64,000 nt of DNA, taken from assembly GCA_905221615.1 (NCBI GenBank), contig CAJNDT010000003.1:993831-1057830 (forward strand). The letters are read 5' to 3'. The stretch comes from Symbiodinium sp. CCMP2592. Taxonomy: Eukaryota > Sar > Dinophyceae > Suessiales > Symbiodiniaceae. Positions 558-60,159 of the stretch are shown here, piece by piece. The notes under the pieces are model-generated. The model was not told the DNA's origin. It did not search any database and was given only the letters and a program-made list of their open reading frames with translations. Made by a program: the position numbers and the translations under genes. Numbering within the stretch: the stretch's first letter is position 1; each line of letters begins with the position of its first letter.

Positions 558-853
558 GAGCCGGAATACAGGAAGCTTAAGTCATCAAGAAACTTGGGAG
601 TGGCTAAGGAACTTAGCCAGGGGCACAGGGCAGTAGTTGGGATCCCACTCGGTCGTATATGGGAGTTTCCGAAAATTAGGGGATACCTTATTTTGGGATC
701 CTTGTAATCAGGATCATACTATTTAGGGTGCCATATTAGGGTCCCCTGTTTTCGGAAACTCCCATATGGTTCCTTCTGGCATCACTCTACCTTCCAAGTC
801 GGGCGTCTTCCAAGCAGGGTTCACCTGACGCTGACGGGCTCAATACCAGTTGA
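558..853 (+). CDS. Terminal coding piece split by a TIR element
   Basis: The frame is open from 558 and reads into a TIR element at 661-763. Deleting the element with one copy of its ATAT duplication joins CGT-ATA-T to GG-TTC and the frame runs on to TGA at 851-853, with a leucine-rich stretch after the junction. No family is recognised. The junction has no GT-AG, so removal would be non-canonical; the alternative is a gene broken by insertion. Confidence 0.4.
661..763. mobile_element. TIR element, family A (GGGAGTTTCC), 4-bp TSD
   Basis: Inverted ends GGGAGTTTCCGAAAAT and ATTTTCGGAAACTCCC style (right end slightly diverged), core with GGGATCC and GTCCC. Flanked by ATAT at 657-660 and 764-767. 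Confidence 0.85.
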
Positions 854-1189
854 CAGAAATCGATAGAAAGCCGTGTGCTCAGCATGGATGTAGCGATTCG
901 GGGTTTGGACCTATGATACTACATCATGGGCCGGGATCACAGGGGATCGTCGCCCTTACGACGGGAAGCAACCTCCAACTGACCATACAGAGCTACAACT
1001 TTGTTGATCTGGATCTACTTTGTATTAAGAATGTAGTCTAGACCTATTAATGCGATATGTTATTGAAAAGTCTAGTTCCTTGTTTCGGCTTTCCAGGATC
1101 CAAGGAAAGCCGCACAGCAGCTGCCGGGCGCCCTTTCCGGGTGAGGGTGCAAAGTAAGGTTTCCTTTAGCCCTGAACCCTTGAACCTTA

Positions 1190-1400
1190 AGCCCCTAAAC
1201 CCACCCAAAAACCTAAACCCCAACAAACCCTGAGCCCCTTAACCTCAAACCCAAAAGCCCCCAAACCCTTCAAGCTTCTTTCAGGAAGTGTAGGGAAGAC
1301 CCTGAAAGCCTCAAGCCTAAGCAAACGGCAGCTACGAGCCTAGATGGTTGCAGCACGTGCATGTTTAGGGCCTTTAGGGTTTAGGGGGTGCAAACCCTAG
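1190..1400. repeat. Degenerate CCCTAAA-type telomere-like spacer
   Basis: Loose copies of CCTGAACCCT, CCCTAAAC and related units, switching to TTTAGGG near 1370. The same degenerate motif fills most non-coding spacers of the window up to about 61 kb. Confidence 0.7.
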
Positions 1401-1401
1401 A

Positions 1402-1507
1402 CGGGAACTTGTCAAAATTATGGTCCCTTGTTGGGTACCCTAAATATTAGGTGCCGTATTATAATAAGGACCCAAAAAAAGGGACCATAATTTTGATAAC
1501 CACCCAT
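1402..1507. mobile_element. TIR element, family E (GTTGTCAAAATTA)
   Basis: Ends TTGTCAAAATTATGGTCCC and GGGACCATAATTTTGATAAC are inverted copies, with the core TAAATATTAGGTGCCGTAT shared with the copies at 21249 and 25723. Confidence 0.8.
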
Positions 1508-1704
1508 ATAGGGGTTTGAACCATCATAAACCTACGCCCTGCAAGTCGGAAGCTTCCAGGCTTAGAGGCGTCTTGACTGATTGGTTCGGACTTATTTCGT
1601 AGTGTTCAGAGGGCTCTTCGTCCGGTCAGGAACCGTTTTTGTCTGATGCGGCCTGGATCAATGAAAGCGCAAGGCAACGACGAGATCAACAAACAGAGAG
1701 ATAG

Positions 1705-1984
1705 AGAGACAGGCAGGGAAATTGGCACCCAGCCACGGCAGGAAAAAGAGTCGCCCAGGCTTTGACAGCAAGAACTCGGAAACCGTGCCTTGCCGCGGCA
1801 GCAACAACAAAGGGTGCCCTGCCGTTTCTGCAGCCGACAAAAAAGCCTGCACTTCCCCAGCTTCAGCAAGCTAAAGGCACCTCGGAGCAACAAGAACCAA
1901 AAAGAAGCCGCCCGCAGCAACGACGACAGTTAGGGCTCAAGGATGCAAGTTACAGAACTTACAGAACCATGGTTCGCGGTTCGA
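1705..1984 (+). CDS. Q/A/K-rich exon candidate
   Basis: An open frame follows TAG at 1702-1704 and carries glutamine- and alanine-rich sequence, ending at a GTAAGT donor at 1985. A second frame from ATG 1660 is also open for part of the stretch. If the donor is used with the acceptor TTGCAG at 2012, the intron would be only 28 nt. Function unknown. Confidence 0.3.
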
Positions 1985-2012
1985 GTAAGTGGAGACTAGG
2001 CTAGGATTGCAG

Positions 2013-2339
2013 GCCATTCCAGGTTACCAAAATTGGCCACTGACCATGGAGACTTCTGTAGCCGAGCTCATCCCAAGTTTCCAGCTCCTGCATTCTGAGA
2101 TCCTACACTTCCCTCAGCCTGGAAGCCATAAACTCTACACAGACCAGGGCATAAGTGCCAAAGTCAGGAAGAACACGATTGGCGTGGTGGAGCACGGCTT
2201 CTTCACAGGTCAGCTACCAAGTCTTCCCAGAATGCAACTCCGACTTCCTCCCGATTCTTCCGTCCCGTCGTGTTCGGCTGATTGTTTTCATGATGACGGC
2301 CATGGGCATGACATGAATGCACACTCAAGGTCCGTGTAG
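2013..2339 (+). CDS. Unknown protein, open frame after TTGCAG acceptor
   Basis: A 109-codon frame begins after GATTGCAG, contains an internal Met at 2045, and ends with TAG at 2337-2339. Codons look used (VAELIPSFQLLHSEILHF; NTIGVVEHGFFTG). His/Asp-rich near the end. A GT follows ACAG at 2208, so an intron there is possible, but the frame stays open without it. The same frame continues past the TAG (next entry). Confidence 0.5.
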   Translation, partial: AIPGYQNWPLTMETSVAELIPSFQLLHSEILHFPQPGSHKLYTDQGISAKVRKNTIGVVEHGFFTGQLPSLPRMQLRLPPDSSVPSCSADCFHDDGHGHDMNAHSRSV

Positions 2340-2516
2340 CAAATTCATGGGGTAGGAGGTCCTACAACAGCGGCGTACACAGATCTTAAACAGCACCCGC
2401 AACATCGGCAACCGCAACATCAACATCTGATCGACAGAAACAGTTGCGCTGTTGCTCCTGCTGCCGCCGCTGCGGCTCTTGCTGCTGCCTTTGTTCAACT
2501 CGTTGGTCTTGATTGA
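2340..2516 (+). CDS. Same-frame extension past the TAG at 2337
   Basis: Immediately after TAG the same frame stays open for 58 codons to TGA at 2514-2516. It encodes a His/Gln-rich part (QHPQHRQPQHQHL) and an alanine run. It could be readthrough, a nonsense mutation in a once longer gene, or chance. Confidence 0.3.
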   Translation, partial: QIHGVGGPTTAAYTDLKQHPQHRQPQHQHLIDRNSCAVAPAAAAAALAAAFVQLVGLD

Positions 2517-2939
2517 GACACACGGTGTCTTCCGCCTTCGGCCGAAAACTGGGGGGCGTTAACATTAACGTTTCGAATGGGCTTGGGATTGCACTAATAG
2601 TCAGAACGGAATGCTACTAAACTCTGCAGACCCCTGCAGTACCCTGAACTCCAGATCCCTTGATCGGTTTGACGGATCGCATCTTGGAGGCTCAAGGTTG
2701 GAGTTTGTAGGGGTTCTTCTTTCGCGGAGTTGGGAGCTAAGGTTTGCGGGAAATTGCGTCCTGAACCACTGAACTCAAACCTTCCTACCCTAAGTCCATA
2801 CTAGGAGATATAGGCCCTAAGCCGTACAACCCGAAGTATCATCAGCCAGCCGTGCCCTATACTCCAGAACTTGTATGAGCCCTATAAACCCCAAAAGCTC
2901 GATTCTCCCGAAAGCCCAGATTCGACACCTGGAGCTCCA

Positions 2940-3054
2940 CATTCCTAAACAACATCTCCGCGACCTAAACCCTAACCCCTAAACCCCTAAACCCCTAAAC
3001 AACCCCTAAACCCTAAACCCTAAACCCCTAAACCCCTAAACCCTAAACCTCCGG
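2940..3054. repeat. CCCTAAA array, near perfect
   Basis: One of the cleanest telomere-like runs in the window (CCCTAAACCCCTAAA units), ending directly at an acceptor-like CCGGCAG. Confidence 0.8.
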
Positions 3055-3057
3055 CAG

Positions 3058-3121
3058 GCATGGCCTCAGTGGCCCTGGTAGCCGGCAAAACGGGGCCCCT
3101 CGTCGTGTCCCGGGGTTTTAG
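3058..3121 (+). CDS. Terminal exon candidate
   Basis: Lies directly after CCTCCGGCAG. The frame from 3059 reads HGLSGPGSRQNGAPRRVPGF and stops at TAG 3119-3121. A second frame (MASVALVAGKTGPLVVSRG) is also open, so the frame is not settled. Confidence 0.3.
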
Positions 3122-3428
3122 GGAATTTGGGTTTAAGGTTTCAGGATTGAGGGATCTGCTTCTACGACGTTTGAAGGTACAGGGCGTTTCAGGTTTAGAC
3201 TTGTAGGCTGTATTGTCAGAAAGCCTGGGACTCTAATACAAAACTCATGCGTTCTTTGCATAATTCCAACACTGTAAGAACTCTCCGATGAGCCTGAAAG
3301 GGGGTCTCTGTTCCGTGGGTAGCTGAAATTCATGGTGGAGCTTGGTGGTTACGGCTTCCGCATATAAGTTTCCGGGGGACTACTGAGTAGATTCACAACA
3401 GAAATCGATAAGGCCACTTTGATTGCAG

Positions 3429-3580
3429 GTTGCCAAGGCCGCAGAGTTTTTTCATTCAGCAGTTGTGCGCTGCCTTCGAGATCGGGGTTCGCTGCGAGCC
3501 CAGGATCTACGAGAAGCGTCCTTCTCGCTGGGGTTTCCTCAGCAGGCTTGGCAAGGTTGTTGCTGCAAGCGCGCTTCGGG
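3429..3580 (+). CDS. Internal exon candidate
   Basis: Bounded by GATTGCAG and by GG|GTTTAGGG. Two frames are open across it: one gives VAKAAEFFHSAVVRCLRD, the other QLCAAFEIGVRCEPRIYEK and a Trp/Arg-rich tail. It is flanked by TTTAGGG-type sequence on the 3' side, as expected of an intron here. No family recognised. Confidence 0.4.
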
Positions 3581-3654
3581 GTTTAGGGCCTAGACCATCA
3601 TTTTTAAAACCCTAAACTGCTAGAGCCTTAACCCTGGTTTGGGTTCGCCTGCTC

Positions 3655-3928
3655 GTGGGGAAGTAGTAGGTAGTACATGGCAGTAGCAGGCAGCAATAGG
3701 TAGTAGTAGGTATGTAGTAGTGGTAGCAGTGGTGGAAGTAGCAGGAGCAGGAGCAGGGAGAGGGGTAGGAGTAGAAGGAGTGGTGGTGGGACTTGTAGTA
3801 GTAACAGTGGTTGTAGTAGTCGTCGTCGTAGTGTTAGTAGTTAGTAGATGAGTAGAAGTAGTAGTGGTGTCAGTAGTAGTAATAATCATAGTAGTAGCAG
3901 TAGCAGTAGCAGTAGCAGTAGCAGTAGT

Positions 3929-3978
<50 letters not shown>

Positions 3979-8430: not shown

Positions 8431-8628
8431 GGGTTTTTACATTTTATCCTGTACCTATAGTCTCCATTGTAGTTCCTTTTTTTGGTTAACCAAACTCTCT
8501 ATTATAGGATCCTAACCATAAAACTGGTTAACCAAAAAAAGGAACTAGAATGGAGACTATACGTAAATTCTGCCCCATCCCCAATCTTGAAGCCGAGGCT
8601 CTGTGGCGTACGGCGCCGTGCTGGCAAG
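8431..8628 (+). CDS. Exon pair interrupted by a TIR element
   Basis: Follows GCTGCCAG; the element at 8454-8563 interrupts it. With the element and one TA removed, two frames stay open to the donor CAAG|GTCTTC at 8629; one reads CKFCPIPNLEAEALWRTAP. No family recognised. Confidence 0.35.
8454..8563. mobile_element. TIR element, family B (TAGTCTCC), TA-flanked
   Basis: Ends CCTATAGTCTCCATTGTAGT and the matching inverted right end (one mismatch), flanked by TA on both sides. Same family at 19018, 20878 and, diverged, 39103 and 41152. Confidence 0.85.
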
Positions 8629-8944: not shown

Positions 8945-9147
8945 GGCTGCAACTGTCAACGCCTTGCAGCCAAAGTTGGTGTCTTGTGTGGTGAAGATTC
9001 AAAGGGGAACAGGAGGGACCCTTAATGGGGACCCCTACCCTATAATGCTATGTTAAGGGTATATACCTAGGGGTCCTTATTAAGGGTCCCTCCTTTTTCC
9101 CTTGGACAGATGCACTTCTGATCGCCTCCCTGGTCCCATTTTCCTAA
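8945..9147 (+). CDS. Terminal coding piece split by a TIR element
   Basis: After ATTGCAG the frame reads GCNCQRLAAKVGVLCGEDS up to 9001. The element at 9002-9102 follows; removing it keeps phase and gives WTDALLIASLVPFS then TAA at 9145-9147. Function unknown. The exact removal point is ambiguous because no clear duplication flanks it. Confidence 0.4.
9002..9102. mobile_element. TIR element, family F (GGAGGGACCCTTAA)
   Basis: Left AAGGGGAACAGGAGGGACCC, right GGGTCCCTCCTTTTTCCCT. Related copies at 23701 and 51401. Confidence 0.8.
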
Positions 9148-11670: not shown

Positions 11671-12027
11671 CCCTACACCCTAAACCGTGTCTGGAAGGAC
11701 CCCATCAACAAAACCCGAGGCCGTTCTGACCCAAGTATCGTTATGGTATATACTTAGACCCCCAAAATACCCTATAAGTATACAGGGAACTCCAGAAAGT
11801 TGGAATCTGGTTTCATGGTAGGATACCCTATAATTTACCATAGAAGGGTTAGGATAATCTCATTCCAACTTTCTGGCTTCTACCTTATACCATAACGATA
11901 CTTGGACCCTTCGGGTGAGCAGGATCGGCCTTTTCTGGAGGATTTGCTGGGCGAGGAGCGCATGAAGCGGCAGAGATGCAAGCAGAATTGGGGGCCCTGT
12001 CAGCTACCTGCTCAAGGGTCTCTTTGA
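11671..12027 (+). CDS. Two-exon unit whose intron is a nested TIR element
   Basis: Exon 1 (about 11671-11727) follows TTACAG and ends RVWKDPINKTRGRS. The intron starts GACCC at 11728 and ends GAGCAG at 11922; the next exon starts GAT. Exon 2 (11923-12027) reads DRPFLEDLLGEERMKRQRCK and stops TGA at 12025. Phase is kept (phase 0). The GA donor and the GA at the start of exon 2 match the J-domain gene. Function unknown. Confidence 0.55.
11728..11915. mobile_element. TIR element, family C, acting as an intron
   Basis: Ends GACCCAAGTATCGTTATGG and CCATAACGATACTTGG are inverted. It holds a family D element at 11782-11884. The intron extends only a few bases beyond. Confidence 0.75.
11782..11884. 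mobile_element. TIR element, family D, nested
   Basis: ACAGGGAACTCCAGAAAGTT on the left and AACTTTCTGGCTTCTAC on the right. Same core (ACCCTATAATTTACCA) as copies at 36855 and 41810. Confidence 0.8.
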
Positions 12028-14953: not shown

Positions 14954-15134
14954 GACTTTGAATTTGACTAACCATTGATATTGGAGGAGCTAAAGAGCCA
15001 GGGATGATGATGAATCCCTATTAAATAAGGAGGTAAAGAGCCATGGAACCCCCAAAACCACTGGTTAGATGAGGCAGCTCAGGAGGAGTCTAGAAACGCC
15101 TGACAGCCCTGCAGCTGAGCAAGCACCAGCCTAG
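14954..15134 (+). CDS. Microexon plus terminal exon around a TIR element
   Basis: After ATGGTAG, GAC-TTT-GAA-TTT (14954-14965) is followed by GACTAACC..GGTTAG (14966-15068) and then ATG-AGG-CAG. The joined frame reads DFEFMRQLRRSLETPDSPAA and stops TAG at 15132-15134. This fits a GA-AG intron; removing the element by its GA duplication instead gives another open frame. Confidence 0.4.
14968..15067. mobile_element. TIR element, family K (CTAACCA)
   Basis: Ends CTAACCATTGATATTGGAG and CCCCAAAACCACTGGTTA are imperfect inverted repeats. The internal direct block GGAGCTAAAGAGCC occurs twice. A second copy is at 17093. Confidence 0.75.
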
Positions 15135-15662: not shown

Positions 15663-16305
15663 ATGGCTGAAGCTGTGGACGTCAGGTTTCACGGCTTGGG
15701 TACTGTTAACTTTTCGAGTTTTATCGAATTTTCAAGATTCGTCTGCGGGCTGTATAGGTCTATCATGCTTTTGTCATTTACTTATGGTTGGTTAGTAGGG
15801 AATGGAGGAATGGGGTACAATTATAACTACTATTACTACCATTCTTCCATTCCCTACTAACCAAAGGTAAGGTATAGGACTACTAAGGCCCCTATACATA
15901 TTATAGTACCCTTGTAGATGCCTTATAGTAACCCTTATAGACCCCTTTAAAAGGCCCCTTCCATTCCCTATTAACCAGCGGTAAGTTTAACATTCTGGGT
16001 GCGGGGTCCCAGGAGGCGGGACTTGTCTTCAGTGATCCTAATATAGGGGCCTAAATTATTCCCTGCACTACGGTTGATGGACTGAATCCTGCATTACCCA
16101 GAAGAAGGAATATGCCAGCCATAACTCCCATAGTTTAAGGTCCTTGGTGTAATGCAGGATTTTGTCCATCACCAGTATTTTGGGGGTTCCACATTGTGAT
16201 TATGGTATAATATGCCTCAAAGCCCTATTCTAATTTACCAAGGCCCCTATATTAGTTCACGTTGAAATCACTTGCCATACTTGTGACCTGCACACTAGAT
16301 GCTAA
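15663..16305 (+). CDS. Three-exon gene interrupted by two TIR elements
   Basis: ATG 15663 opens MAEAVDVRFHGLGTVNFSSF and a hydrophobic part up to TAT-GGT at 15788. A TIR element follows to 15977; AAG at 15983 resumes the frame (KFNILGAGSQEAGLVFSD) to 16037. A second element (16038-16255, itself holding another) follows, and C+TT-CAC resumes LHVEITCHTCDLHTRC, TAA 16303-16305. Neither junction needs a frameshift, but the first boundary is blurred by a duplicated element end. No family recognised. Confidence 0.5.
15789..15977. mobile_element. TIR element, family I, with two right ends
   Basis: Left TGGTTAGTAGGGAATGG; matching right ends at 15849-15864 (CATTCCCTACTAACCA) and at 15961-15977 (CCATTCCCTATTAACCA), the second after an insert of family G-like sequence. 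Confidence 0.65.
16038..16255. mobile_element. TIR element, family G, carrying a family J element
   Basis: Ends CTAATATAGGGGCCT and AAGGCCCCTATATTAG. It is interrupted by a family J element at about 16073-16171. Confidence 0.8.
16073..16171. mobile_element. TIR element, family J, nested
   Basis: TGATGGACTGAATCCTGCAT left and ATGCAGGATTTTGTCCATCA right. The core TCCCATAGTTTAAGGTCCTT matches the copy at 43255. Confidence 0.8.
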
Positions 16306-16617: not shown

Positions 16618-16689
16618 ATAAGGGACCCTTAATCCTATTATACTGTACCACAGAACACATTTTCTCTACCATAATGTACTTTACCCTAA

Positions 16690-16763
16690 GGCCCCAAAGT
16701 AGTTCCTTTTCGGGGTTCGTATGTAGAATCCTGTAGGGTAATCCCAACTACTTTGGGGCCTCT
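16690..16763. mobile_element. TIR element, family H (AGGCCCCAAAGTAGTT)
   Basis: AAGGCCCCAAAGTAGTTCC and the inverted AACTACTTTGGGGCCT. It lies between matching ATAATGTAC (16671) and GTACATTAT (16772), suggesting it sits inside a further inverted-repeat element. Confidence 0.75.
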
Positions 16764-16888
16764 GGGGAACAGTACATTATGATACACTACAATATCTACG
16801 CCTGCATCCCAGCCTTCATCATATGGTTATTAAGGCCTCCAATGGTTGTCTTGGGGGTGCAAGCCGTGAGCCGTAGGTTTCGGCAACT

Positions 16889-17266
16889 ATGGACTCGACC
16901 TTTCTACAATTGAGGGGACGACTGCTCCCAGCCTCTAAGCCCAACATCCAAAAAGCATCTCACATTAATACTTTTAAACCGGTACTGCTATTAGTTATGA
17001 GCCTTCTTCTTGTTATTAAAACTTCTATTCTCATCCGAATTATTGTTAACAAGTACTGCTATGAATATTCACCAGAACCTTACAGATCTGAACTATCCAT
17101 TGACATTGGAGGAGCCAAGGAGCCAGGGATGATGATAGTCCCTCCTAAATAAGGAGCTAAAGAGCCATGGAACCCCCAAAACCACTGGTTAGTGAGGTTT
17201 CAGGTTTGCAGGTTCCCAGAGCCTCAGTCGACAGTGTCCAAGCGAAGACGGGCCGCTGCGATCTGA
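16889..17266 (+). CDS. Small membrane protein, frame closed by removing a TIR element
   Basis: ATG 16889 opens 68 codons with one hydrophobic helix (VLLLVMSLLLVIKTSILIRI) and ends PEPYRSE at 17092. The family K element at 17093-17191 would stop the frame soon after. Without it, GTG-AGG-TTT continues in phase (VRFQVCRFPEPQSTVSKRRR) to TGA 17264-17266. About 92 residues, single-pass membrane topology, basic C-terminus. No family recognised. Confidence 0.5.
17093..17191. mobile_element. TIR element, family K, second copy
   Basis: CTATCCATTGACATTGG left and CCAAAACCACTGGTTA right, near identical internally to the copy at 14968. Confidence 0.75.
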
Positions 17267-19017: not shown

Positions 19018-19117
19018 CCTATAGTCTCCATTGTAGTTCCTTTTTTTTTTTTTTTTTATTCTATATTATGGATCCTATAATGTAACACCCAAAAGGAACT
19101 ACAATGGAGACTATAGG
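19018..19117. mobile_element. TIR element, family B
   Basis: CCTATAGTCTCCATTGTAGT and its inverted end at the right; the loop has a 17-T run instead of TTTTTGGTTAACC. Confidence 0.85.
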
Positions 19118-20877: not shown

Positions 20878-20986
20878 CCCATAGTCTCCATTGTAGTTCC
20901 TTTTTGGGGTTACCTGGTTACCTTTTAGGATCCTTAATGCAAAATTAGTTAAACCAAAAAAAGGAACTACACTGGAGACTATAGGG
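20878..20986. mobile_element. TIR element, family B
   Basis: CCCATAGTCTCCATTGTAGT left, inverted right end with ACTGGAGACTATAGGG. A degenerate family G copy follows at about 21000-21078. Confidence 0.8.
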
Positions 20987-21039: not shown

Positions 21040-21502
21040 ATGGACAAACCCTATTCCAATTATGAAGGACCCTACAGTATGACGAGGGTTTCTGCAGGAT
21101 TCTGTACGGGTTGCGCAAAGCTGGTAGAAGGCCTTCAACTTCTTTGCGGAAAGGCCAGGGAGACATCCAAGCCTACTGTAGAAAGCCCGAATACAAAACT
21201 TCATAGACCTTGGAAAGTTTCGCGTGGGCTGTCGGGCTTAGGACATCATATGGGAAGTTGTCAAAATTATGGCCCCTTTTTCGCCACCCTAAATATTGGG
21301 TGCCGTATTATAGTAAGGACCCAAAAAGGGACCCTACTTTTGACAACCACCCATACAACCTTTGCAAAAGCCCCACCTGGGTCTGATGGATGACATCATG
21401 CCTTCTCCAGAGAAGGAAGCCCATGCCATAGATTCTAGGGATCTCGGGCTCACTGTGGAAACGCAGCCATGTTTCCTTCAGCGGTATGTCCAATATTTAT
21501 AA
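21040..21502 (+). CDS. Coding piece split by a TIR element (strand not certain)
   Basis: The open frame contains GFCTGCAKLVEGLQLLCGKA and ends GLSGLGH at 21246. Removing the element 21249-21355 and one CA joins it in phase to PLQKPHLGLMDDIMPSPEKE, then on to TAA at 21500-21502. The downstream part also has a good minus-strand frame (KETWLRFHSEPEIPRIYGM, donor CAG|GTGGGG), so the strand needs RNA evidence. Confidence 0.45.
21249..21355. mobile_element. TIR element, family E, CA-flanked
   Basis: TATGGGAAGTTGTCAAAATT left, TTTTGACAACCACCCATA right, CA on both sides. Confidence 0.85.
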
Positions 21503-22303: not shown

Positions 22304-22487
22304 GATCTGTAGGCTCCACTTCTTTGTCTGGCAATGTCATGGTAACCCATAGGGTCCAAGTATCATCGTGGGACATACTTAGACCCCCAAAATGCCCTAT
22401 AAGCATATACCAGGATGATACTTGGACCCTTTGGGTAAGGGAATTCCGAAGCCCAGGACTCTTCAAAGTCGGAGTTCTGGAATCTGA
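22304..22487 (+). CDS. Two-exon unit whose intron is a TIR element
   Basis: Exon 1 after AGTTCAG reads GSVGSTSLSGNVM and ends ATG|GTAACCC at 22341. The intron (22342-22439, 98 bp) is the element plus its TAA duplications, ending GGGTAAG. Exon 2 reads GIPKPRTLQSRSSGI, TGA 22485-22487, in phase. This is a GT-AG intron in which the duplication supplies both splice dinucleotides. Confidence 0.5.
22346..22435. mobile_element. TIR element, family C, TAA TSD
   Basis: CCCATAGGGTCCAAGTATCA and its inverted end CTTGGACCCTTTGGG, flanked by TAA at 22343-22345 and 22436-22438. Confidence 0.9.
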
Positions 22488-23766: not shown

Positions 23767-23993
23767 ATTATACTTCTCGTTACTAAGTCCCGTACCCAGA
23801 GGCCCCAAAGTAGTTCCTTTTTGGGAGTACCCTATAGGATTCGAACTACTTTGGGGCCTCTGGGTAGTTGTTAAGTCCCAGGATCCTCTAAGGAAGTTTG
23901 GGATCTCTGGAAACCGGGCGACCCCGAGCTCTCCTTCATCGCAAGCTTTCCAATACCCTGAGAGAACTTCGGAGCTGAATCCCTACCCCCCTT
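23767..23993 (+). CDS. Coding piece split by a family H element
   Basis: Between the family F and H elements the frame reads LYFSLLSP. With 23795-23864 and one TA removed it continues VVVKSQDPLRKFGISGNRAT and a Ser/Pro-rich part to a GTTTAGGG donor at 23994. Function unknown. Confidence 0.4.
23795..23864. mobile_element. TIR element, family H, TA-flanked
   Basis: CCCAGAGGCCCCAAAGTAGT and perfect inverted end; TA on both sides; only 70 bp. Confidence 0.9.
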
Positions 23994-24962: not shown

Positions 24963-25207
24963 AGGATACAGGGTTACTGGAAAGCCCCTGTCCCTGAGCA
25001 ACTCGATTGCAAAGCACAGAAGCCCCACAACGAAAAGCATATGGTCTTGTTCAGAGACATGGGAGTCTCCGAAAATAGGGATCCTTGTTTTGGAGTCCTT
25101 ATAGTAAGGATCCTTCTATTTAGGGTACTATACTAGGGTCCCCTATTTTCGGAAGCTCCCACATGAGCTTAGTCTCCCTAGCCACTGCTGCCGGTTGCAT
25201 TGCCTAG
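24963..25207 (+). CDS. Terminal coding piece restored by removing a TIR element
   Basis: Open from 24963 (RIQGYWKAPVPEQLDCKAQK, then HNEKHMVLFRD) into the element at 25061. Deleting 25061-25160 and one ACAT gives GAC-ATG-AGC and continues MSLVSLATAAGCIA to TAG 25205-25207. The join is exact in phase and the only break is the element. Confidence 0.5.
25061..25160. mobile_element. TIR element, family A, ACAT TSD
   Basis: GGGAGTCTCCGAAAATAGGG left, inverted right end GGAAGCTCCC, ACAT at 25057-25060 and 25161-25164. Confidence 0.9.
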
Positions 25208-25264: not shown

Positions 25265-25468
25265 GCCGAAGTCCCAACCCCTGCATCAGTAATACAAGAC
25301 TGCACGAGAGGTATATGGGAGTTTCCGAAAACAGGGGTACCTTATTCTGGTGTCCTTATAATAAGGATCCTACTATTTAGGGTACTATATTAGGATCCCC
25401 TATTTTCGGAAGCTCTCATACACTGTGAACCCAGGCAACTCGGCCACGGAAGCTCAGAGCCCAGCTGA
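25265..25468 (+). CDS. Terminal coding piece restored by removing a TIR element
   Basis: Opens after TAA at 25262 and reads AEVPTPASVIQDCTRG to the element. Removing 25317-25417 with one duplication gives IHCEPRQLGHGSSEPS and TGA at 25466-25468, in phase. Confidence 0.4.
25317..25417. mobile_element. TIR element, family A, ATAT/ATAC TSD
   Basis: GGGAGTTTCCGAAAACAGGG left, right end GGAAGCTCTC, flanks ATAT and ATAC. Confidence 0.85.
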
Positions 25469-25722: not shown

Positions 25723-25825
25723 TGGGTGGTTGTCAAAATTAGGGTCCCTTTTGGGGCACCTTAAATATTAGGTGCCGTATTATATTAAGGACCCAATAAG
25801 GGACCATAACTTTGACAACTACCCA
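25723..25825. mobile_element. TIR element, family E
   Basis: TGGGTGGTTGTCAAAATTAG left and TTTGACAACTACCCA right, the best preserved ends of this family. Confidence 0.9.
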
Positions 25826-26139: not shown

Positions 26140-27900
26140 AACTTGTCCATGCAGAACATGAGCATCTGCTGTGTCAGACCTTCCTTAGAGCCCGGGGCGA
26201 CAGCACACATGATCAGCATCATTTGCCTCAGACTTTCCGCAGTGCCAGGGGCACGGCACGCATCATCAGCATCAGCTGGTTCGGTTTTCTGGTTGGCCGC
26301 GACAGCACACATCATGAGCGTGAGCTGCTTCAGACTTTCCGCAGTGCCAGGGGGCGCGGCACGCATCATCAGCATCAGCTGGTTCGGGTTTTCTGGTTGG
26401 CCGCGACAGCACACATCATGAGCGTGAGCTGCTTCAGACTTTCCGCAGTGCCAGGGGGCGCGGCACGCATCATCAGCATCAGCTGGTTCGGGTTTTCTGG
26501 TTGGCCGCGACCGCACACATCATGAGCGCAAGCTGCTTCCACGCATCATCAGCATCAGCTGGTTCGGGTTTTCTGGTTGGCCGCGACAGCACACATCATG
26601 AGCGTGAGCTGCTTCAGACTTTCCGCAGTGCCAGGGGGCGCGGCACGCATCATCAGCATCAGCTGGTTCGGGTTTTCTGGTTGGCCGCGACCGCACACAT
26701 CATGAGCGCAAGCTGCTTCAGACTTTCCGCAGTGCCAGGGGGCGCGGCGCGCATCATCAGCATCAGTTGGTTCGGTTTTTCTGGTTGGCCGCCGCGACAG
26801 CATGCATCATCGGCATCAGCTGCCTCACACTTTCCGCAGACAGCCAGGGCCCACGGCACGAACCATCAGCATCAGCTGGTTCGGCTTCTCTGGTTGGCAG
26901 GAATCAGCACGAATCACCAGCATCACCTGCTACAGACTTTTCATAGAGCCAGAGCTGGTTTGGCTTATCCAGCTGGCAGCAATGGCACGCATCATCAGCA
27001 TCAGCTGCCTGAGACTTTCTATGGAGCCAGGGGGCACAGCACACATCATCAGCATCCAGCTGGTTTGGTTTTGCGGTGTGGCAGCTACGACGCGCATCAT
27101 CAGCATCAGCTGCTTCAGACTTCCCATAGTGCCTTTCCGTTCTGCTAGGGTCAGACTTGCCATAGTACCAGGGGTCACGGCATGCATCATCAGCATCAGC
27201 TGCTTCCAGCTTTTTGGCATCGGCACTCATCATCAGCAGTAGCGACACACATCATTAGCATCAGCTGCTTCTTGCTTTCCATAGTGCAAGGCGTCACGGC
27301 GCGCATCATCAGCATCAGACTCTCTCACAGTGCGAGAGGCCGCTGCACATCATCGGATTTTCGGTTGGCAGCAATTGCACACATCATCAGCATTCGCTGC
27401 CTCAGACTTTCCAGAGTGCCAGGGGCCACGGCATGCATGCATGCATCATCAACATCATCATCATCATCATCATCATCATGAGCAGCTGCGTATTTTTCTG
27501 GTTGGCAGCGATGGCGGCACGCATCATCAGCATCAGCTGGTTCCGTGATTCGAGTTGGCGGCAACAGTATACATCATCAGCATAACCTGCGTGAGACGTT
27601 CCATGGAAAGGCCACAGCACGCATCATCAGCATCAGCTCGTTTTCCTCTGGGTAGCAGCTATAAGGCATGCATCATCAACATCAGCTGCTTCATACTTTG
27701 CATAGTATACATACATACATATATATATATATATATGTATATTTTATGTAGAAATACTGATGTTTATATGTATGTCAATGTGTGTACACATATAGATATA
27801 TACCCACACACACATGTAAGCTGTAATGTAGGCTGTTTTTTTCTCGGGGTAGTGCGACGGCACGCATCATCAGCATCAGCTTCCGCAGACTTTTGCAGTC
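26140..27900. repeat. Two-phase minisatellite with GCACGCATCATCAGCATCAG core
   Basis: About thirty copies of a conserved core near GCACGCATCATCAGCATCAG, followed alternately by CTGCTTCAGACTTTCCGCAG and CTGGTTCGGGTTTTCTGGTT spacers. Copies are near identical at 26280-26740 and decay toward 27900. All frames are open on both strands (up to 215 codons), so the ORFs are a by-product. A (CATCAT)n run lies at 27445. Confidence 0.9.
27712..27745. repeat. (CATA)n/(TA)n microsatellite
   Basis: ATACATACATACATATATAT inserted within the decaying end of the minisatellite. Confidence 0.85.
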
Positions 27901-32325: not shown

Positions 32326-33809
32326 ATGGCCTTTTGCTACTACGAAGCCTTGGGCGTTGGCCGGTCAGCATCGGCCGCCGAGATCAAGTCAGCATCTTTG
32401 GCCGCAGAGAGGCTTCGACTACACAGCATACACTTATGCAGGGACACTAAGAGATCAGATGAGACCCTGACTTGTAGTCAGCTGTTTGGGGTCATGTTTT
32501 CATAAAGGGCGCGGGCAGTAGAGTAGGTTACCCATAGAATCCAAAACAACAATTTTTTAATACAGCAGTTCAGAGGCCCAGGTAGGGCCACAACAGTTGC
32601 GCTTTCTATTACATGTAGTCGACCAGATAGGCTCCGGTTGGCTATACGGGTAGTTCTCTAAAAAAGGGTACCATTTTTAGATCTCAAATGTATGCCACCC
32701 TTCTAAAAAGGAACATAACCCTAAGAAGCACCCTATTTTAGAGAACTACCCCCACCCATCCATCTCTCGCAATCCTTCAGTATCCTGCCCAGAAACATGC
32801 GACGTCTAATCAGCGGATCAGCCCTGAACCCTTGAAACCCTAAACTCCTAAATTCAGAAGTGCTAAAATCCCGAGCAAGGCCCGTAGTTCCAGGGTTTAG
32901 CCTTTGGGGTCGAGGGTTTATGGGTAACAGCTGTTCAGGGCTTAGGGCCGAGCGGTTAGGGGCCATGGGCCAATGAAAGCCCGGATGGTCTGCAGTGATC
33001 CATGTGGCATCGTCAGGTTGTTTTCAATGCCGGATTCGGGCGTACCACGGGTTGAGGGTTCAGGGTCAGCCAACTTGTTCTGACATTTTCCCAAGCGAAA
33101 CACGAATTTGGAACTCCGCTGCTACAGCTGAAGGTTTGATTAGCAGGCCGAAACATGGCATCTGGCAAAGGGCCTCCAGCGCGAAACCGCTGCTTACAGG
33201 TTCTTTGGGCTGTTGCAAGAAAGATTGTATGCACCATAGCCATAGTTACCTTACCCATGACTGGCAACCCTCCGTACTACGTCCTAGGATCCTTGGTTTC
33301 TTCAAGCCCGGTCTTCAAAAGCGAAGGCCTCGAAGCCCGAAGCCATCGAAGCCTTAAAGCCCTGAGCCCTGATCCCACAAGCCCTCGACCACGCAAGCCA
33401 GAAGCCACCGAAACCCCTGCATAAACTCGAATTCCGAGGCTGACGCAGGGGTGAAAAGTCCTGCAAAAAGGCCCTTGCAAACTTTGAGCAACCGGTAGTA
33501 GCAATACTATACTACAATCGTCCTTCAGAAACTGCAAGGGCATATCATGAATATCTGCGTGCAGTTCCACACCCAGCGACCGCATTTTGTTGATCCCTTT
33601 CAAGGGCCTGAATTATAAAGCCACTCACAAAGCGTCAAGAAGACCTACAAACAGCTTAAAGCAGCTCATTGGACAAACCCCAAGCCTTCCAGACTCGCGA
33701 ACCTGGCCCAGGCATACCTTTCCCGGGTCCGCAAGCTCCATCCAGATGCTGGGCCATTTTAGCTTCAGCGTTTATGGGATGTTATGGGGTGTTTCGTTTG
33801 GTTATTGTG

Positions 33810-37159: not shown

Positions 37160-37351
37160 CCCAAAGGGTCCAAGTGTCATCCTGGTATATGGGAGTTTCC
37201 GAAAATAGGGGTACCTTATTCTGGGGGCCGTATAATCAGGATCCCATTATTTAGGGTACTATATTAGGGTCCCCTATTTTCGGAAACTCCCATATACTTA
37301 TAGGGCATTTTGGGGATCGTATGTCCCATGATGATACTTGGACCCTTTGGG
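37160..37351. mobile_element. TIR element, family C, TGT TSD, hosting family A
   Basis: CCCAAAGGGTCCAAGTGTCA left, CTTGGACCCTTTGGG right, TGT on both sides. Split by the family A copy at 37191-37291. Confidence 0.9.
37191..37291. mobile_element. TIR element, family A, nested, ATAT TSD
   Basis: GGGAGTTTCCGAAAATAGGG and perfect inverted end. Its removal restores the host element's GGTATATACTTATAGGG. Confidence 0.95.
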
Positions 37352-37941: not shown

Positions 37942-38031
37942 CCCAGAGGGTCCAAGTATCATGCTGGTATATACTTATAGGGCATTTTGGGGGTCTAAGT
38001 ATGTCCCATGATGATACTTGGACCCTTCGGG
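37942..38031. mobile_element. TIR element, family C, TTG TSD
   Basis: CCCAGAGGGTCCAAGTATCA left, CTTGGACCCTTCGGG right, TTG on both sides. Confidence 0.9.
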
Positions 38032-39026: not shown

Positions 39027-39473
39027 TTGGAAGGTGCTTTGGTGCAGTTCGGGGGATTAGGGTTCATGGCTTCGGGTTTTAACAGGTTTGCAATGGTCGA
39101 TACCCATAGGCTCCATCGTAGTTCCTTTTTGGGATTACCTTATAGGATTCTACATGTGAACCCCAACAAGGAACTACTATGGAGCCTAGGGGTATCTGAA
39201 ACATCAGGAGTGAGGGGAAGCAAGGCGGTGCTGTACCCCAACAGCTCTGCACTGGGCTGCAGAAGGACTGTGGGGCCAGGAACCCCAAACTCCGAAACTC
39301 CAAGCTCTTGCTGGCTTCCGGCAGATGTCGCTTGCGGCCTTCACCGAGCTGTTGCGCCGGCGATGGCGCAGTGCGAGGCCAGCAACACGGCAGCGGTTCA
39401 GGTGTGTTCCATACCTCAGTATCTTTTGATTAATGGAAAAGGTTGGGACGGGCAAGATGCAAATCTACGTTAG
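39027..39473 (+). CDS. 148-codon ORF running through a TIR element
   Basis: Open from 39027 to TAG 39471. The element at 39103-39192 happens to be open in this frame. Downstream: GSKAVLYPNSSALGCRRTVG, a Cys/Ala-rich central part, and QCEASNTAAVQ before a CAG|GTGTGT donor-like site. Removing the element with one TA instead joins LTGLQWSI to SETSGVRG. Either reading is possible. Confidence 0.45.
   Translation: MEGALVQFGGLGFMASGFNRFAMVDTHRLHRSSFLGLPYRILHVNPNKELLWSLGVSETSGVRGSKAVLYPNSSALGCRRTVGPGTPNSETPSSCWLPADVACGLHRAVAPAMAQCEASNTAAVQVCSIPQYLLINGKGWDGQDANLR
39103..39192. mobile_element. TIR element, family B variant (TAGGCTCC), TA-flanked
   Basis: CCCATAGGCTCCATCGTAGT left, ACTACTATGGAGCCTAGGGG right, TA on both sides. 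Confidence 0.85.
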
Positions 39474-39660: not shown

Positions 39661-39860
39661 ATGTCCGGTGCCGGGTCCAGCTCCCTGCAGGGTCGGTTTG
39701 GGAGTTTCCGAAAATAGGGGGGTTACCCTATTTTGGGGTCCTTATAACAAGGATCCTATACTACTTAGAATACTATATTAGGGTCCCCTCTTTTGGGAAA
39801 CTCCCGTTTGGGTTTCGGGAGGAGTTGCTATCATGTCTTGTTCGTCTTTGCAGGTTTTAG
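39661..39860 (+). CDS. 29-residue frame restored by removing a TIR element
   Basis: ATG 39661 opens MSGAGSSSLQGR. Removing 39700-39805 with one GTTT gives FGFREELLSCLVRLCRF and TAG 39858-39860; CAG|GTTTTAG at 39853 could equally be a donor, making this a first exon. Confidence 0.4.
39700..39805. mobile_element. TIR element, family A, GTTT TSD
   Basis: GGGAGTTTCCGAAAATAGGG left, GGGAAACTCCC right, GTTT at 39696-39699 and 39806-39809. Confidence 0.9.
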
Positions 39861-41151: not shown

Positions 41152-41276
41152 CCCATAGGCTCCATAGTAGCTCCTTTTTAGGGACTAAGTTCCTTTTTGG
41201 GATTAGGGTTTAGGGTTTAGGCCTTATAGACTTCTAAATATGACCACCCAACAGGAACTACTATGGAGCCTTTGGG
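41152..41276. mobile_element. TIR element, family B variant with TTTAGGG inside
   Basis: CCCATAGGCTCCATAGTAGC left and CTACTATGGAGCCTTTGGG right, TA-flanked. The loop holds GATTAGGGTTTAGGGTTTAG. Confidence 0.8.
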
Positions 41277-41776: not shown

Positions 41777-42121
41777 ACAGTAGGGTCTTTCGGTAGACTT
41801 CAAGGCTTTACAGGGAACTCCACAAAGTTGGAATATGGTTTCAGGGTAGGATACCCTATAATTTACCACAAAGGGTTTAGGGTAATCATATTCCGACTTT
41901 CTGGCTTTTGCTGTAGGGTTCAGGCAACCTCACTTTCGGAAGGAGCCCGCCAGGCCCCCAACCTGAGCCCGAAAAGGTGCAGCTTTACCTTAACCCTGAA
42001 TAACCTACTCTTTTTAGGGTTCCTTATTATGATTTCCTTATATAAGTCCTTAAGAATCTAGGTTATTCCGGGTCAAGGTAAGCCTAGAAGTTTAGATATT
42101 AAGCTGAAAATCCCATTTTGA
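41777..42121 (+). CDS. Coding pieces joined across two TIR elements
   Basis: VTVGSFGRLQGF ends at the family D element (41810-41914); RVQATSLSEGARQAPNLSPK then RCSF runs to the family L element (41988-42078). Removing it with one TA gives KPRSLDIKLKIPF and TGA 42119-42121. Phase is kept at both joins. Function unknown. Confidence 0.4.
41810..41914. mobile_element. TIR element, family D
   Basis: ACAGGGAACTCCACAAAGTT left, ACTTTCTGGCTTTTGCTGT right. The loop contains AAAGGGTTTAGGGT. Confidence 0.85.
41988..42078. mobile_element. TIR element, family L, TA-flanked
   Basis: CCTTAACCCTGAATAACCTA left, TAGGTTATTCCGGGTCAAGG right, TA on both sides. Single copy here. Confidence 0.8.
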
Positions 42122-43093: not shown

Positions 43094-43445
43094 TTGTATC
43101 ACACGGTTAATGAAAACATATGTTGTGCGCGTCGGGAACCATTGGCCTTTGCCACCATCATCATCAGCGTCACTACCACCATCATCAGCATCATCACCGC
43201 CAGCTCTAGCAGCAGCAGCAGTGCCGCGACCCCGGCCGCCACCAGCACCACTACGGTTGATGATATAAATCTTGCATTACCCATAATAAGGAATATACCA
43301 TAATTCCCATAGTTTAGGGTCCTTAAGGTAATGCAGGGTTTATATCATCAACCGCAGCACCTCATCGTGACAGGAGTTTGCCTGCCGACTGCGCACGCTG
43401 CTTGCTTGAACACGGAAGAAGCAGCAGGGTCCAGAACTTTAAGGC
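43094..43445 (+). CDS. Coding pieces around a family J element
   Basis: ATG 43094 opens MYHTVNENICCARREPLAFA, a hydrophobic/Thr stretch and a Ser run ending PAATSTT. Without 43255-43353 the frame continues QHLIVTGVCLPTAHAACLNT and beyond. A GT-AG pair (ACG|GTTGATG..CCGCAG|CAC) would also keep phase, so here the element can be an ordinary intron. Confidence 0.45.
43255..43353. mobile_element. TIR element, family J
   Basis: GGTTGATGATATAAATCTTG left, GGTTTATATCATCAACC right, core as in the nested copy at 16073. Confidence 0.9.
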
Positions 43446-51400: not shown

Positions 51401-51530
51401 AAAGGGGAAAAGCAGGGACCCTTAATGGGACCCCCACCCTATAATGGGCTATATTAAGGGTATATAATAGCTATAATATTAAGGGTATATACCTAGGGGT
51501 CCTTATCAAGGCTCCCTCCTGTTCTGCTGT
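51401..51530. mobile_element. TIR element, family F, with internal duplication
   Basis: AAAGGGGAAAAGCAGGGACC left, GGCTCCCTCCTGTTCTGCT right; the TTAAGGGTATATA block is present twice. Confidence 0.75.
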
Positions 51531-51652: not shown

Positions 51653-51747
51653 TGGGCAGTCCTCTAAATTAGGGTCCTGCTTTCAGGCCCTCTTTGTCAC
51701 GGTGCCGTACTATATTGGGAACCTACCCTGGTTTAGAGAACTACCCA
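51653..51747. mobile_element. TIR element, family E-like
   Basis: TGGGCAGTCCTCTAAATTAG left, TTTAGAGAACTACCCA right, core GGTGCCGTACTATATT. Confidence 0.7.
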
Positions 51748-55974: not shown

Positions 55975-56285
<311 letters not shown>

Positions 56286-56975: not shown

Positions 56976-57052
56976 ATCTTGCTTGCCAAATAGGGATCAT
57001 GTGCATCACGTGACGGTCGTGTTGGAGTTGAGGTCGGTATTGCGAGAATTTT

Positions 57053-57541
57053 TTACCGGGACTGTTGGTTCTGGCGGCTTACATACTGCTCTCCGGGGAA
57101 CCGTGCGCGAGGTTCACGCACTGAAAGGGAACCATCAAGGCGAGCTTGCAAGATGCGGGACTTCAGCATCACGTAGTGCAGGTTGCACGAGCGGCACTCG
57201 CAGCCCACATCAGCATGTGTTTCGCGCCACGTCGAATTGTGTCCATGGTAGGCATGAAGCCCAGAATCACAAACGCGTAGTCTTGGTTCCTGAGATTTGA
57301 ACATGCTTGAGCGCCAACTTGGGTTTCGACATTTCATAGCTATAAGATGTTGCGTGAAGTATATTGCTGCGTGTAGGTTCTGAAGTCCAACAGTGCCAGA
57401 GAGATTTTGTGACGGGTGTCCGTGATGTGGCTCATCAGGGGTAGCCTTTTGCAGGGTTGGATTGCCGGAAACGAAATCTGAAGCGTGATGCCTGAAACCC
57501 CAAAGCTTCAAAGCCGCAGGCCCAGAGAGTTTAAACACCAC
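57053..57541 (-). CDS. 162-codon minus-strand ORF
   Basis: The longest minus-strand frame outside repeats. It includes QNLHAAIYFTQHLIAMKCRN and a CECRSC cluster after ETHADVG, with basic C-terminal parts. A 112-codon plus ORF (56962-57300; HVTVVLELRSVLREFFTGTV) overlaps it. No family recognised; the start may really be an upstream exon. Confidence 0.4.
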   Translation of the reverse strand: MVFKLSGPAALKLWGFRHHASDFVSGNPTLQKATPDEPHHGHPSQNLSGTVGLQNLHAAIYFTQHLIAMKCRNPSWRSSMFKSQEPRLRVCDSGLHAYHGHNSTWRETHADVGCECRSCNLHYVMLKSRILQARLDGSLSVREPRARFPGEQYVSRQNQQSR

Positions 57542-57612
57542 CGCATAAAACTCTTCTCACACTGCCTAAACCCAGAGGCCCTAGACCCTCCGCTTTTGAT
57601 TGTAAGGCGCAG

Positions 57613-57998
57613 GTGGTGAAAGAGCATCTCGGGCTGAATGTTGAGGCTGGATCTTGCATGCACAGAATTCCACAAAAGGTTTGAATTTCCTTGAGTACAG
57701 AACGGCCTTCTGGCCGAAGAACCTAGAGATATGGATTTCAGAAGGGGCCCCCACCCTGTAATAGTGGTATAATAGGAATAGAATAGGGCCCGAATATAAT
57801 CCTTATAGTCACTATTACAGAGTGGGGGCAGCTTCTAATATGGATCCCTGGAGCCATCTAGATTATTCGGTAGGCGGGCGGCGTAAAATAGTAGCTCTGC
57901 GGGAAGTCAGCAAGCAAGTTTGCATGCGCTCTTGCATGCATACGTCTGGGCATGAGACACATGACATGACACGGCAATCCGGTCATGACAGGTCCTAG
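57613..57998 (+). CDS. Gene with a mini-intron and a TIR element with 8-bp TSD
   Basis: After AAGGCGCAG the frame reads VVKEHLGLNVEAGSCMHRIP up to AAG|GTTTGA (57678). A 22-nt GT-AG segment (57679-57700) could be skipped in phase to NGLLAEEPRDMD. Removing 57737-57837 with one ATATGGAT continues PWSHLDYSVGGRRKIVALRE and a His/Ser-rich end to TAG 57996-57998. A second frame (LEYRTAFWPKNLEIWIPGAI) is open across the same junction. Function unknown. Confidence 0.45.
57737..57837. mobile_element. TIR element, family M, 8-bp TSD ATATGGAT
   Basis: AGAAGGGGCCCCCACCCTGT left and CAGAGTGGGGGCAGCTTCT right; ATATGGAT at 57729-57736 and 57838-57845. Single copy here. Confidence 0.85.
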
Positions 57999-58117
57999 AC
58001 ACACATTAGTGTTGGATGTTGGAGCAGTCTTGCACCCATTGCTCCGCGCGTGAACTTCGATGTACATGTAAGTCACAAGCCAGGACACCTGCAGCCCCAA
58101 TCGCCGAAACCTTCAAG

Positions 58118-58180
58118 CCCGAAGGGATCAGCCACCAAGTGTTTGAACCCAAAGCAGCAAAAGAGCGGCCGAAGCGCTGA
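58118..58180 (+). CDS. Terminal exon, basic
   Basis: The frame reads PEGISHQVFEPKAAKERPKR to TGA 58178-58180, after CCTTCAAG. Clean. Confidence 0.5.
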   Translation, partial: PEGISHQVFEPKAAKERPKR

Positions 58181-58705
58181 TTTTCTTAAACCGTCCTATC
58201 TGAACAGCAGACGATCACATCAGCCTGACATACCCTAAACCCTAACCTGCACGCGCGACACCATCAACCATAAATCTTAGAATGAATCCTTCAACCCCTT
58301 GCCCCTGCCCCGAAATCAGTACTGATATTCCGCAGGGCTATTCAGAAAATCGCAGCACATATTCCGGCCCCCACCCCTCACAAAAAGAAACTTCCCAAAC
58401 CCAAGTATTAAAAGAATCAAGGAACCCAACCTTGGGCAGGAGCCACTCATGAAGCAGCTGGGGGCTCAGGGCAAGGCAGCACACGTTTACATGCCTCGGT
58501 TTAAGGTTTCGGTGTTTGGGGGTGTAGGGCTTTAGGGGTTTAGGGGTTAAGGCTTACGGGCTTTATAGGCTTCTGGGTTCGCGGCTTATTTCCCCCATTG
58601 GTGCTCTTGGTTGGTTTGGCGTCTATTTGAGGCTTCTAGGTTTTTCGGTTTGTTGGTTTGATGCAAGTAGGCCTTCATGGTATGGGGTGCTAATGAATAT
58701 TTCAG

Positions 58706-58919
58706 GTCGGCTGCTTCTGATGAAACTGAGAAGACCTTCGTTATGGGATGGACCCAAGCACTTAGGAAAAGAGACCCAACTAGACGCAACAGATCACAGA
58801 CACTGGCCAGAGGTCAACGTCAGTCAACGTCTGTGTTTAAGTACAAGTACCGCAGAGTAGGGGCTCCGCTTGTGCACAAAATGAGCTCGAGGTTTAAAGG
58901 TTTAAACTCTAAACACTAA
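58706..58919 (+). CDS. Terminal exon, strongly basic
   Basis: After ATTTCAG the frame carries DETEKTFVMGWTQALRKRDP and VFKYKYRRVGAPLVHKMSSR to TAA at 58917-58919. Basic and possibly nucleic-acid binding or ribosomal in character, but no family match is visible. Confidence 0.55.
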
Positions 58920-59018
58920 ATGCTTGTTGCAACTGTTCATCTGTTGGGAATTCGCGGCCGTGAGACCCGAGACCTTTAACCCGAAACTGGGAGTGTACAG
59001 AAACTGCTCGAAAACATT

Positions 59019-59111
59019 GGGGAGTTTCTGAAACATAGTACACTAAATAGTAGGATCCTGATTATAAGCCCCAAAAAATTACTCAGGTATTCCTAGCTTT
59101 CGGAAGCTCCC
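59019..59111. mobile_element. TIR element, family A, diverged
   Basis: GGGGAGTTTCTGAAACATAG left, TTTCGGAAGCTCCC right, ATTG/ATTT flanks. On removal two plus frames stay open for at least 35 codons past the junction. Confidence 0.75.
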
Positions 59112-59206
59112 ATTTCACTTTTTCGTGTTATCGTCAGATTAGCGCTGGATCTCCCAGCATCGCTAGTTTCGCCAGCCTTCTTGGCTTTCCCTCATATGGA
59201 ATGCAG

Positions 59207-59308
59207 GGGCCTTAGTAGTTAGAGTAGGGCTCTTGGGGCTCCTTATCATATAAATATAGTGTCACATACCCCCAGAGCTTATTCTAATTAGTGTAAGGTC
59301 CCTACAGT
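59207..59308. mobile_element. Degenerate TIR element, family G
   Basis: GCAGGGGCCTTAGTAGTTAG left, GTAAGGTCCCTACAGTAATG right, family core between. Confidence 0.5.
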
Positions 59309-59363
59309 AATGCGGCGTTGGTTGCTACAGTTACGCTTGTTACTGCTTGACTAGTATAGTGGT

Positions 59364-59789
59364 TTGCCAGCGCGCATGCACCACTTCGACTACGCCTGCT
59401 GCTGCTACTGCTGCTGCGCCGACTTTGCCTTTACTTCTGTTTCTACTCCACCACTACTGCCACCGCAGGGTTTCCATCCCTCGCAAGCAACTTACGTCGA
59501 ACAGCCCCACACGCGCAAGCAGATGATCACCCCTGCCGCTCCCACAGGCGTTGCTGATGCAAGAAACGGAGGACCTCATTTCGGGTTTTGGGCTCATTCG
59601 GGCGGTCCACTGACGATGGTTTTTGACGCTTGGCACTTATATCTTGAATTCAGACAGACTCCTAAACCCTACACCTCCACGCCCCAAACCTCTTTCACCG
59701 CAACGATCCACAACTCGAAGGCTAATTGCCCTGAACCCGCAAACCCTGTGTCCTGGAACCTTCCGAAACTCATGCAGGTTGATTTCTAA
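59364..59789 (+). CDS. 141-codon ORF, Cys cluster then Pro-rich
   Basis: ATG-TAA frame. MHHFDYACCCYCCCADFAFT, then GFHPSQATYVEQPHTRKQMI and GPLTMVFDAWHLYLEFRQ have good codon use; after about 59655 it turns into CCCTAAACC-like sequence and is probably intronic. No domain recognised. Confidence 0.5.
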   Translation: MPARMHHFDYACCCYCCCADFAFTSVSTPPLLPPQGFHPSQATYVEQPHTRKQMITPAAPTGVADARNGGPHFGFWAHSGGPLTMVFDAWHLYLEFRQTPKPYTSTPQTSFTATIHNSKANCPEPANPVSWNLPKLMQVDF

Positions 59790-60056
59790 GCCCCACGTTT
59801 CAATTCAGAACGCATACAGGTCGCTTAACTCTGGAAACCTACCCGGCCTTTCGAAAATCAGGAGCCCAGTTTGCACTACGCCGCGAACCCTAGACCTTAG
59901 ACCTTATGACGCCAAACCCTGTAAGCCTGAAGTCTTACAGGCCTAGAGTCTGTCTATCTATCTAGAAAACCACCCAGACCCCAAAACCCTAAAGCCCTCA
60001 ACCCTGCAACCTTCAGCCCTGTACCCTAAACGTTCTATTTTGGGCTCTTCTTATCT

Positions 60057-60159
60057 GGGAGTTTTCCGAAAATTAGAGGTACCTTATTTTGGGGGTCCTT
60101 ATAATAAGGATCCGACTATTTAGGGTACCTGAAAGGAACCCTAATTCAGAGAACTACCC
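60057..60159. mobile_element. Mosaic TIR element: family A left, family E-like right
   Basis: Left GGGAGTTTTCCGAAAATTAG and middle ATAAGGATCCGACTATTTAG as family A; right end AATTCAGAGAACTACCC as the elements at 32648 and 51653. ATCT/ATTT flanks. On removal the frame ILGSSY joins FEEEWELIFSHQHLSAAP. Confidence 0.65.

Follow-up and report, generated by a model that had tools for sequence, protein, structure and literature searches.

Inverted-repeat elements in the window

The stretch of DNA analysed here (hereafter the window) comprises 64 kb of contig C3 in the genome assembly of the dinoflagellate Symbiodinium sp. CCMP2592 (1.098 Gb in 5383 contigs). Within it lie 33 copies of short elements with terminal inverted repeats (TIRs), which were assembled by scanning for TIRs, by comparing the window with itself and by a fuzzy search for element ends. 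A sequence-only reading of this DNA had pointed to short inverted-repeat elements of many kinds, and they are indeed present at the places it named; it had further proposed that they may be non-canonical introns, since the removal of an element together with one target duplication seemed to join open reading frames at eleven sites. The elements are listed below as miniature inverted-repeat transposable elements (MITEs) where they could be so classified, with their target-site duplications (TSDs); none of them has an assigned strand.

661-763, family A MITE, ends GGGAGTTTCC/GGAAACTCCC, TSD ATAT (4/4)
25061-25160, family A MITE, TSD ACAT
25317-25417, family A MITE, TSD ATAT/ATAC (3/4 match)
37191-37291, family A MITE, TSD ATAT, within the family E element 37160-37351
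39700-39805, family A MITE, TSD GTTT
59020-59111, degenerate family A element, flank match 3/4
60057-60160, degenerate A/M-like element without a clear TSD
1403-1505, family B MITE, GGGTGGTTGTCAAAA-type ends
21252-21352, family B MITE, TSD ATAT/ATAC
25724-25824, family B MITE
32648-32751, M-type MITE, GGGTAGTTCTC ends
51654-51746, M-type MITE
8454-8563, family C MITE, TSD TA
19018-19117, family C MITE, TA on one side, the other off by one base (by eye)
20878-20985, family C MITE, TA on one side, the other off by one base (by eye)
39103-39192, family C/H MITE, TSD TA
41152-41276, family C/H MITE, TSD TA
16684-16766, family H MITE, flank match 1/2
23795-23864, family H MITE, TSD TA
11731-11905, family E element
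22346-22435, family E MITE, TSD TAA
23148-23237, family E MITE, flanks TAG/TAA
37160-37351, family E MITE, TSD TGT, holds a family A element
37942-38031, family E MITE, TSD TTG
15781-15871, family F MITE; genome copies have ends CTTACCTTTGG/CCAAAGGTAAG and 4-bp TSDs
14968-15068, family S element, flanks TTGA/ATGA
17093-17192, family S element, flanks TGAA/TGAG
16038-16255, composite, outer inverted ends enclosing a Q-type element at 16074-16172
43257-43351, family Q element
41984-42082, family V element, no TSD seen
57747-57829, family R element, no TSD seen
9011-9094, family D element
51411-51520, family D element

Where the TSD is clear, its length is constant within a family: 4 bp in families A, B and F, the dinucleotide TA in C/H and 3 bp in E, the C/H and E calls being based on few copies and made partly by eye. 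Families A and B share ends of the type GGG...CCC together with their 4-bp TSDs, and the targets of family A mostly read A-N-N-T. The duplications of family E are TAA, TGT and TTG, with one copy flanked by TAG/TAA, and the flanks of family S agree at three of four positions; no TSD was seen in the window flanks of families R and V or of the outer element at 16038. For family A, 15 of 18 flank pairs (12 from 20 fetched genome regions and six from the window) match at three or four positions (binomial p = 1e-16), as do 12 of the 14 family F pairs obtained from 20 fetched regions (p = 9e-14). The family A element at 37191-37291 is nested in a family E element, which sets the order of the two insertions.

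All eleven sites named in the sequence-only reading have inverted ends, and its claim of target duplications stands at seven of them: the 4-bp flanks match completely at 661, 25061 and 39700 and at three of four positions at 14968, 17093, 21249 and 25317. At 16038, 41988, 57737 and 60057, two positions or fewer agree.

MITEs in general are short, carry TIRs, are flanked by TSDs and occur in thousands of copies. The elements described here resemble them in these respects (TSDs were seen in several of the families, and copy number was counted genome-wide for families A and F).

The idea that some thirteen families share a similar core survives only in part. When the outer 18 bp were trimmed and the cores scored pairwise against null levels, 8.8% of 431 cross-family pairs exceeded the 99% level and 21.3% the 95% level. 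The general likeness across family cores is thus weak. There is partial relatedness among families A, B and V (above the 99% level: 73% of 15 A-B, 60% of five A-V and 33% of three B-V pairs) and between C and H (58% of 12 pairs), while most other pairs do not stand above shuffled sequences. The M group is incoherent, as none of its three internal pairs reached that level, while 33% of 15 A-M pairs did. The genome contains the core word GGTTCCTTATTATAA 1255+1169 times and the reversed word 26+9 times.

Genome-wide abundance and target preference

Family A is the commonest of the families counted. Its end GGGAGTTTCCGAAAA has 15,370+15,396 exact copies in the genome, 30,766 in all, against 1+3 for the reversed-word control, and the family F end has 2787+2727 copies against none for its control. 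ATAT stands directly before 8626 of the 30,766 family A ends (28%), and AGGT before 241 (0.78%). The 21-mers of family A are unevenly spread over contig C1, with 33 in the first 1.66 Mb and eight in the other 2.35 Mb.

Frame and coding tests of the window copies

Each join was made at the exact element ends, with the element plus 0 or 4 bp deleted, and was set against 1500 size-matched random joins. In addition to the length of the best open frame, a codon score was used, for which 3959 codons from HSP90 and dynein frames served as the training set; of true coding splits drawn from this same set, 99% scored above the 95% level of the null.

The comparison with random joins, which the sequence-only reading had itself proposed as a check, went against it: the frames joined by element removal are no more open than chance. 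At none of the eleven named sites did the best open frame reach p < 0.05 (range 0.15-0.94; combined p 0.84 and 0.82). The codon score fell below 0.05 at one of the eleven joins when the element alone was deleted (60057, p = 0.046) and at none when 4 bp were deleted as well, with combined p values of 0.33 and 0.36, respectively. Among all 33 window joins, one codon score was below 0.05 (16038) and no frame length was; the mean p values were 0.49 and 0.51. Because joins and codon scores are at chance level, the intron reading has to be dropped for the window copies. After deletion of the element and 4 bp, a G[TCA]-AG boundary is absent at ten of the eleven named sites; at 16038 one GA-AG boundary is possible, but it lacks a matching duplication. 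A codon-score match at 43144-43251, beside the family Q element at 43257, looks repetitive by eye.

A de novo scan for inverted repeats in the window and the fetched loci, a weak test, placed 1.2% of 169 elements above the 95% level of its null for intron-like coding joins, and none of the 39 in the window. Of the 17 window frames of at least 150 amino acids, ten were scanned against Pfam, and none of these had a match above the cut-off. The longest frame (26324-27148) lies mostly inside a tandem repeat array. There is, hence, no evidence that the window elements are introns or that the surrounding window DNA carries a coding signal.

Family A copies at AGGT targets

Outside the window, family A copies appear to form exact introns at two coding sites. 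Sampling every fifth of the first 100 AGGT rows gave 20 copies from the 241 AGGT ends, and ten of these have AGGT on both sides. A further copy, L107, looks two-sided by eye and has a decayed right end. In two of the ten, L116 and L103, deletion of the segment GTGGGAG...CTCCCAG, which begins with GT and ends with AG, restores a conserved coding frame. Both splice sites would be usable GT-AG sites, and both derive from the duplicated AGGT. The codon scores of the ten copies are p = 0.004 for L116, p = 0.043 for L103 and at least 0.098 for the other eight.

The element-free join of L116 (contig C1017, region 66790-67790) yields a protein of 111 amino acids with 78 matches in the genome. Among the 76 non-self rows, 48 extend across the junction by about 10 amino acids or more in both directions, 41 of them net ungapped; the alignment with an uninterrupted paralog on contig C990 runs gap-free across the junction. 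No Pfam match above the cut-off was found for this protein. L103 (contig C88, region 99070-100070) gives a frame of 202 amino acids with 33 matches and an NYN domain (PF01936, E 3.8e-6) at residues 19-110, within which the junction falls at residue 55. Its uninterrupted paralog on contig C4488 likewise aligns gap-free through the junction; 29 rows span the junction, nine of them net ungapped. If retained, the element and its TSD would add 106 bp with a stop codon to L103. A search of solved structures with the L103 NYN frame gave nothing useful.

Coding joins were thus found in two of ten two-sided AGGT copies and in none of 67 other scored copies (Fisher p = 0.015). Four further pairs among L100-L119, including L112 (p = 0.036), were left out of both groups.

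Family F elements end in AG, and a GYNN target could therefore give introns, yet none of its 14 flank pairs has such a target. Two individual family F copies were considered and rejected: one in L021 has the target GTAA and lies inside a long gap between HSP90 exons, and L073, with flanks GAAG/GAAA, gives no convincing coding join.

Elements and introns in HSP90 and dynein genes

HSP90 copies on contigs C680 and C5133 have exon blocks in common, which are 87-97% identical in DNA sequence. Several of these blocks are separated by far longer gaps on C680 than on C5133, and the longer gaps contain elements of families A, C and F. The C5133 locus has no match in the element library, and its HSP90 introns are therefore not made of these elements. 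By eye, the HSP90 introns read GC-AG, GA-AG, GT-AG and GA-AG, with one more GA donor, for which the acceptor is not fixed, and one intron best read as CT-AG. This CT-AG fit, also made by eye, applies to one intron in two gene copies (L021, 5853-6465, and its counterpart in L020).

HSP90 occurs in two forms, namely tandem copies with the domain in one open frame (L009-L012, contig C1335) and intron-rich tandem copies (L020, L021, L023, L024). Dynein heavy chain genes comprise long intron-free frames (contig C1446, 3269 amino acids) beside genes that are matched exon by exon.

Weighing the explanations

The reading that we consider well founded is that the elements are MITEs of several classes which are not introns in the window, and that family A acts as an occasional introner at AGGT. 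The introner interpretation of the sequence-only reading is thereby given up for the window and kept in a modified form, as the GGGAGTTTCC family fits an introner elsewhere when the duplicated target is AGGT.

Several points weigh against this reading. There are only two intron cases, and they come from ten two-sided copies chosen for their AGGT target. When the comparison is restricted to family A copies (none of 23), the Fisher p value rises to 0.085; the 67 comparison copies were judged by the codon score and not by homology; and one of these 67, the family F copy L067, scored p = 0.001 and was discounted because it proved to be a poly-alanine repeat. Two gene families supplied the training set of the codon score, and L103 taken alone reaches just p = 0.043-0.046. 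The scan of 169 elements is a weak test, since the loci behind its null include known genes and since neither L116 nor L103 reaches the 95% level of that null. That L116 and L103 are spliced in RNA we infer from homology, and the interrupted copies could be pseudogenes.

This last possibility leads to a plainer account, in which the two AGGT copies are unspliced insertions in pseudogenes or dispensable duplicates. Both genes are indeed multi-copy, with 78 and 33 matches, and after any clean insertion into an exon the deletion of the element and one duplication will restore the frame, so that frame restoration would merely reflect exact target duplication. Open frames are nevertheless kept on either side of the element (202 amino acids in L103), no convincing coding join was seen in any of the other 67 copies scored, and the GT-AG layout is exact in both cases, although this layout was itself the selection criterion. 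We regard unspliced insertion as unlikely, while giving it some weight.

Much less can be said for the proposal that the window elements are non-canonical introns of the Amoebophrya type, spliced by means of their inverted repeats without GT-AG ends, which we consider very improbable. It is in keeping with the inverted ends, which measure 8-20 nt or more, and the short direct repeats, both as described for Amoebophrya in PMC7789003, and with the codon scores at 60057 (element alone removed) and 16038 (p = 0.045-0.05). A single score below 0.05 among 33 is, however, the chance rate, no joined frame at the eleven sites beat chance, the host HSP90 introns are by eye mostly GT/GC/GA-AG, and both intron-like copies have GT-AG ends and hence do not represent a non-canonical intron type. 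Precise excision at the DNA level, as in ciliates, instead of at the RNA level would in principle be permitted by inverted ends and exact target duplications, but the elements are still in the assembly in tens of thousands of copies, which makes this scenario scarcely credible. No DNA-level deletion of this kind is known to us in dinoflagellates, no search aimed at it having been made.

Comparison with known introners

The link to dinoflagellate introners drawn in the sequence-only reading proved to be a good lead. The introners of Symbiodinium microadriaticum, as described in the text of Gozashti 2022 (PMC9860276), have TIRs and take a splice site from the TSD; family A resembles them in its dinoflagellate host, its TIRs, its 4-bp TSDs and a TSD-derived splice site. 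Compared by description, it differs in that those introners bring their own 3' splice site, whereas family A has neither site and needs AGGT. Florenciella introners owe both splice sites to the place where they insert (PMC9860276, legend of Fig. 2E). Family A likewise has no splice sites of its own, but the lineage is a different one.

Roy et al. 2023, as cited in PMC11453091, reported diverse dinoflagellate introners, Polarella glacialis having 15 families that each comprise at least 100 introns; in contrast, the sampled copies of the families examined here are mostly not introns. Introner elements are also described for Effrenium (PMC11114475) and Prorocentrum (PMC10666404). In the MITE-like introner elements of Amoebophrya, the inverted repeats measure 8-20 nt and the direct repeats 3-5 nt (Farhat 2021, PMC7789003); according to the same source, these elements are introns of compact genomes, have non-canonical ends and are supported by RNA, whereas nothing marks the window copies as introns. 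No AGGT-dependent dinoflagellate MITE was found in the literature, in a limited search that is weak evidence of absence.

Other sequence features

The telomere-like 7-mer TTTAGGG/CCCTAAA occurs in 104+72 copies across the window, against 12+11 for the reversed words. A tandem array with units of about 104 bp and 180 bp, one pair of which is 100% identical, occupies 26197-27133 and is the array that holds most of the longest frame; a (CTA)n array of about 101 copies lies at 55982-56284. The GC content falls to 0.365 at 60001-62000, against 0.45-0.53 in the rest of the window, and AT-rich inverted repeats are present at 61200-61623. The dinoflagellate spliced-leader 21-mer has 217+212 copies in the genome, against none for the reversed word, in agreement with a dinoflagellate host.

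Family A as a possible conditional introner

We suggest that the elements are non-autonomous DNA transposons with terminal inverted repeats, of several classes, scattered through dinoflagellate DNA and presumably moved in a cut-and-paste manner by a cognate transposase. Family A favours A-N-N-T targets, among which ATAT is the most frequent, and duplicates 4 bp. Should the target be an AGGT in a coding exon, the duplication would yield the arrangement AG/GT-GGGAG...CTCCC-AG/GT (slashes at the intron boundaries), a ready GT-AG intron whose removal would give back the original coding sequence. The element would then supply neither splice site and the target both; the ordinary spliceosome would splice the L116 and L103 copies, and selection may remove exon copies at other targets.

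We lean, by a modest degree, towards regarding family A as a conditional introner in this sense, with an A-N-N-T preference that includes AGGT and with few transpositions that would yield full GT-AG introns. A crude extrapolation from two of ten two-sided copies among the 20 fetched from 241 AGGT ends would put their number at some tens, about 24.

A new, non-canonical type of intron is no longer called for, and the gain of introns from transposons is a known phenomenon, of which family A would be another case. If family A is truly a conditional introner, one and the same family would display the raw spectrum of its transposition together with the subset of introns that survived selection. Since the non-intron copies appear far more numerous than the intron copies, landing sites would be separable from intron survival, and intron gain by transposition would become measurable family by family.

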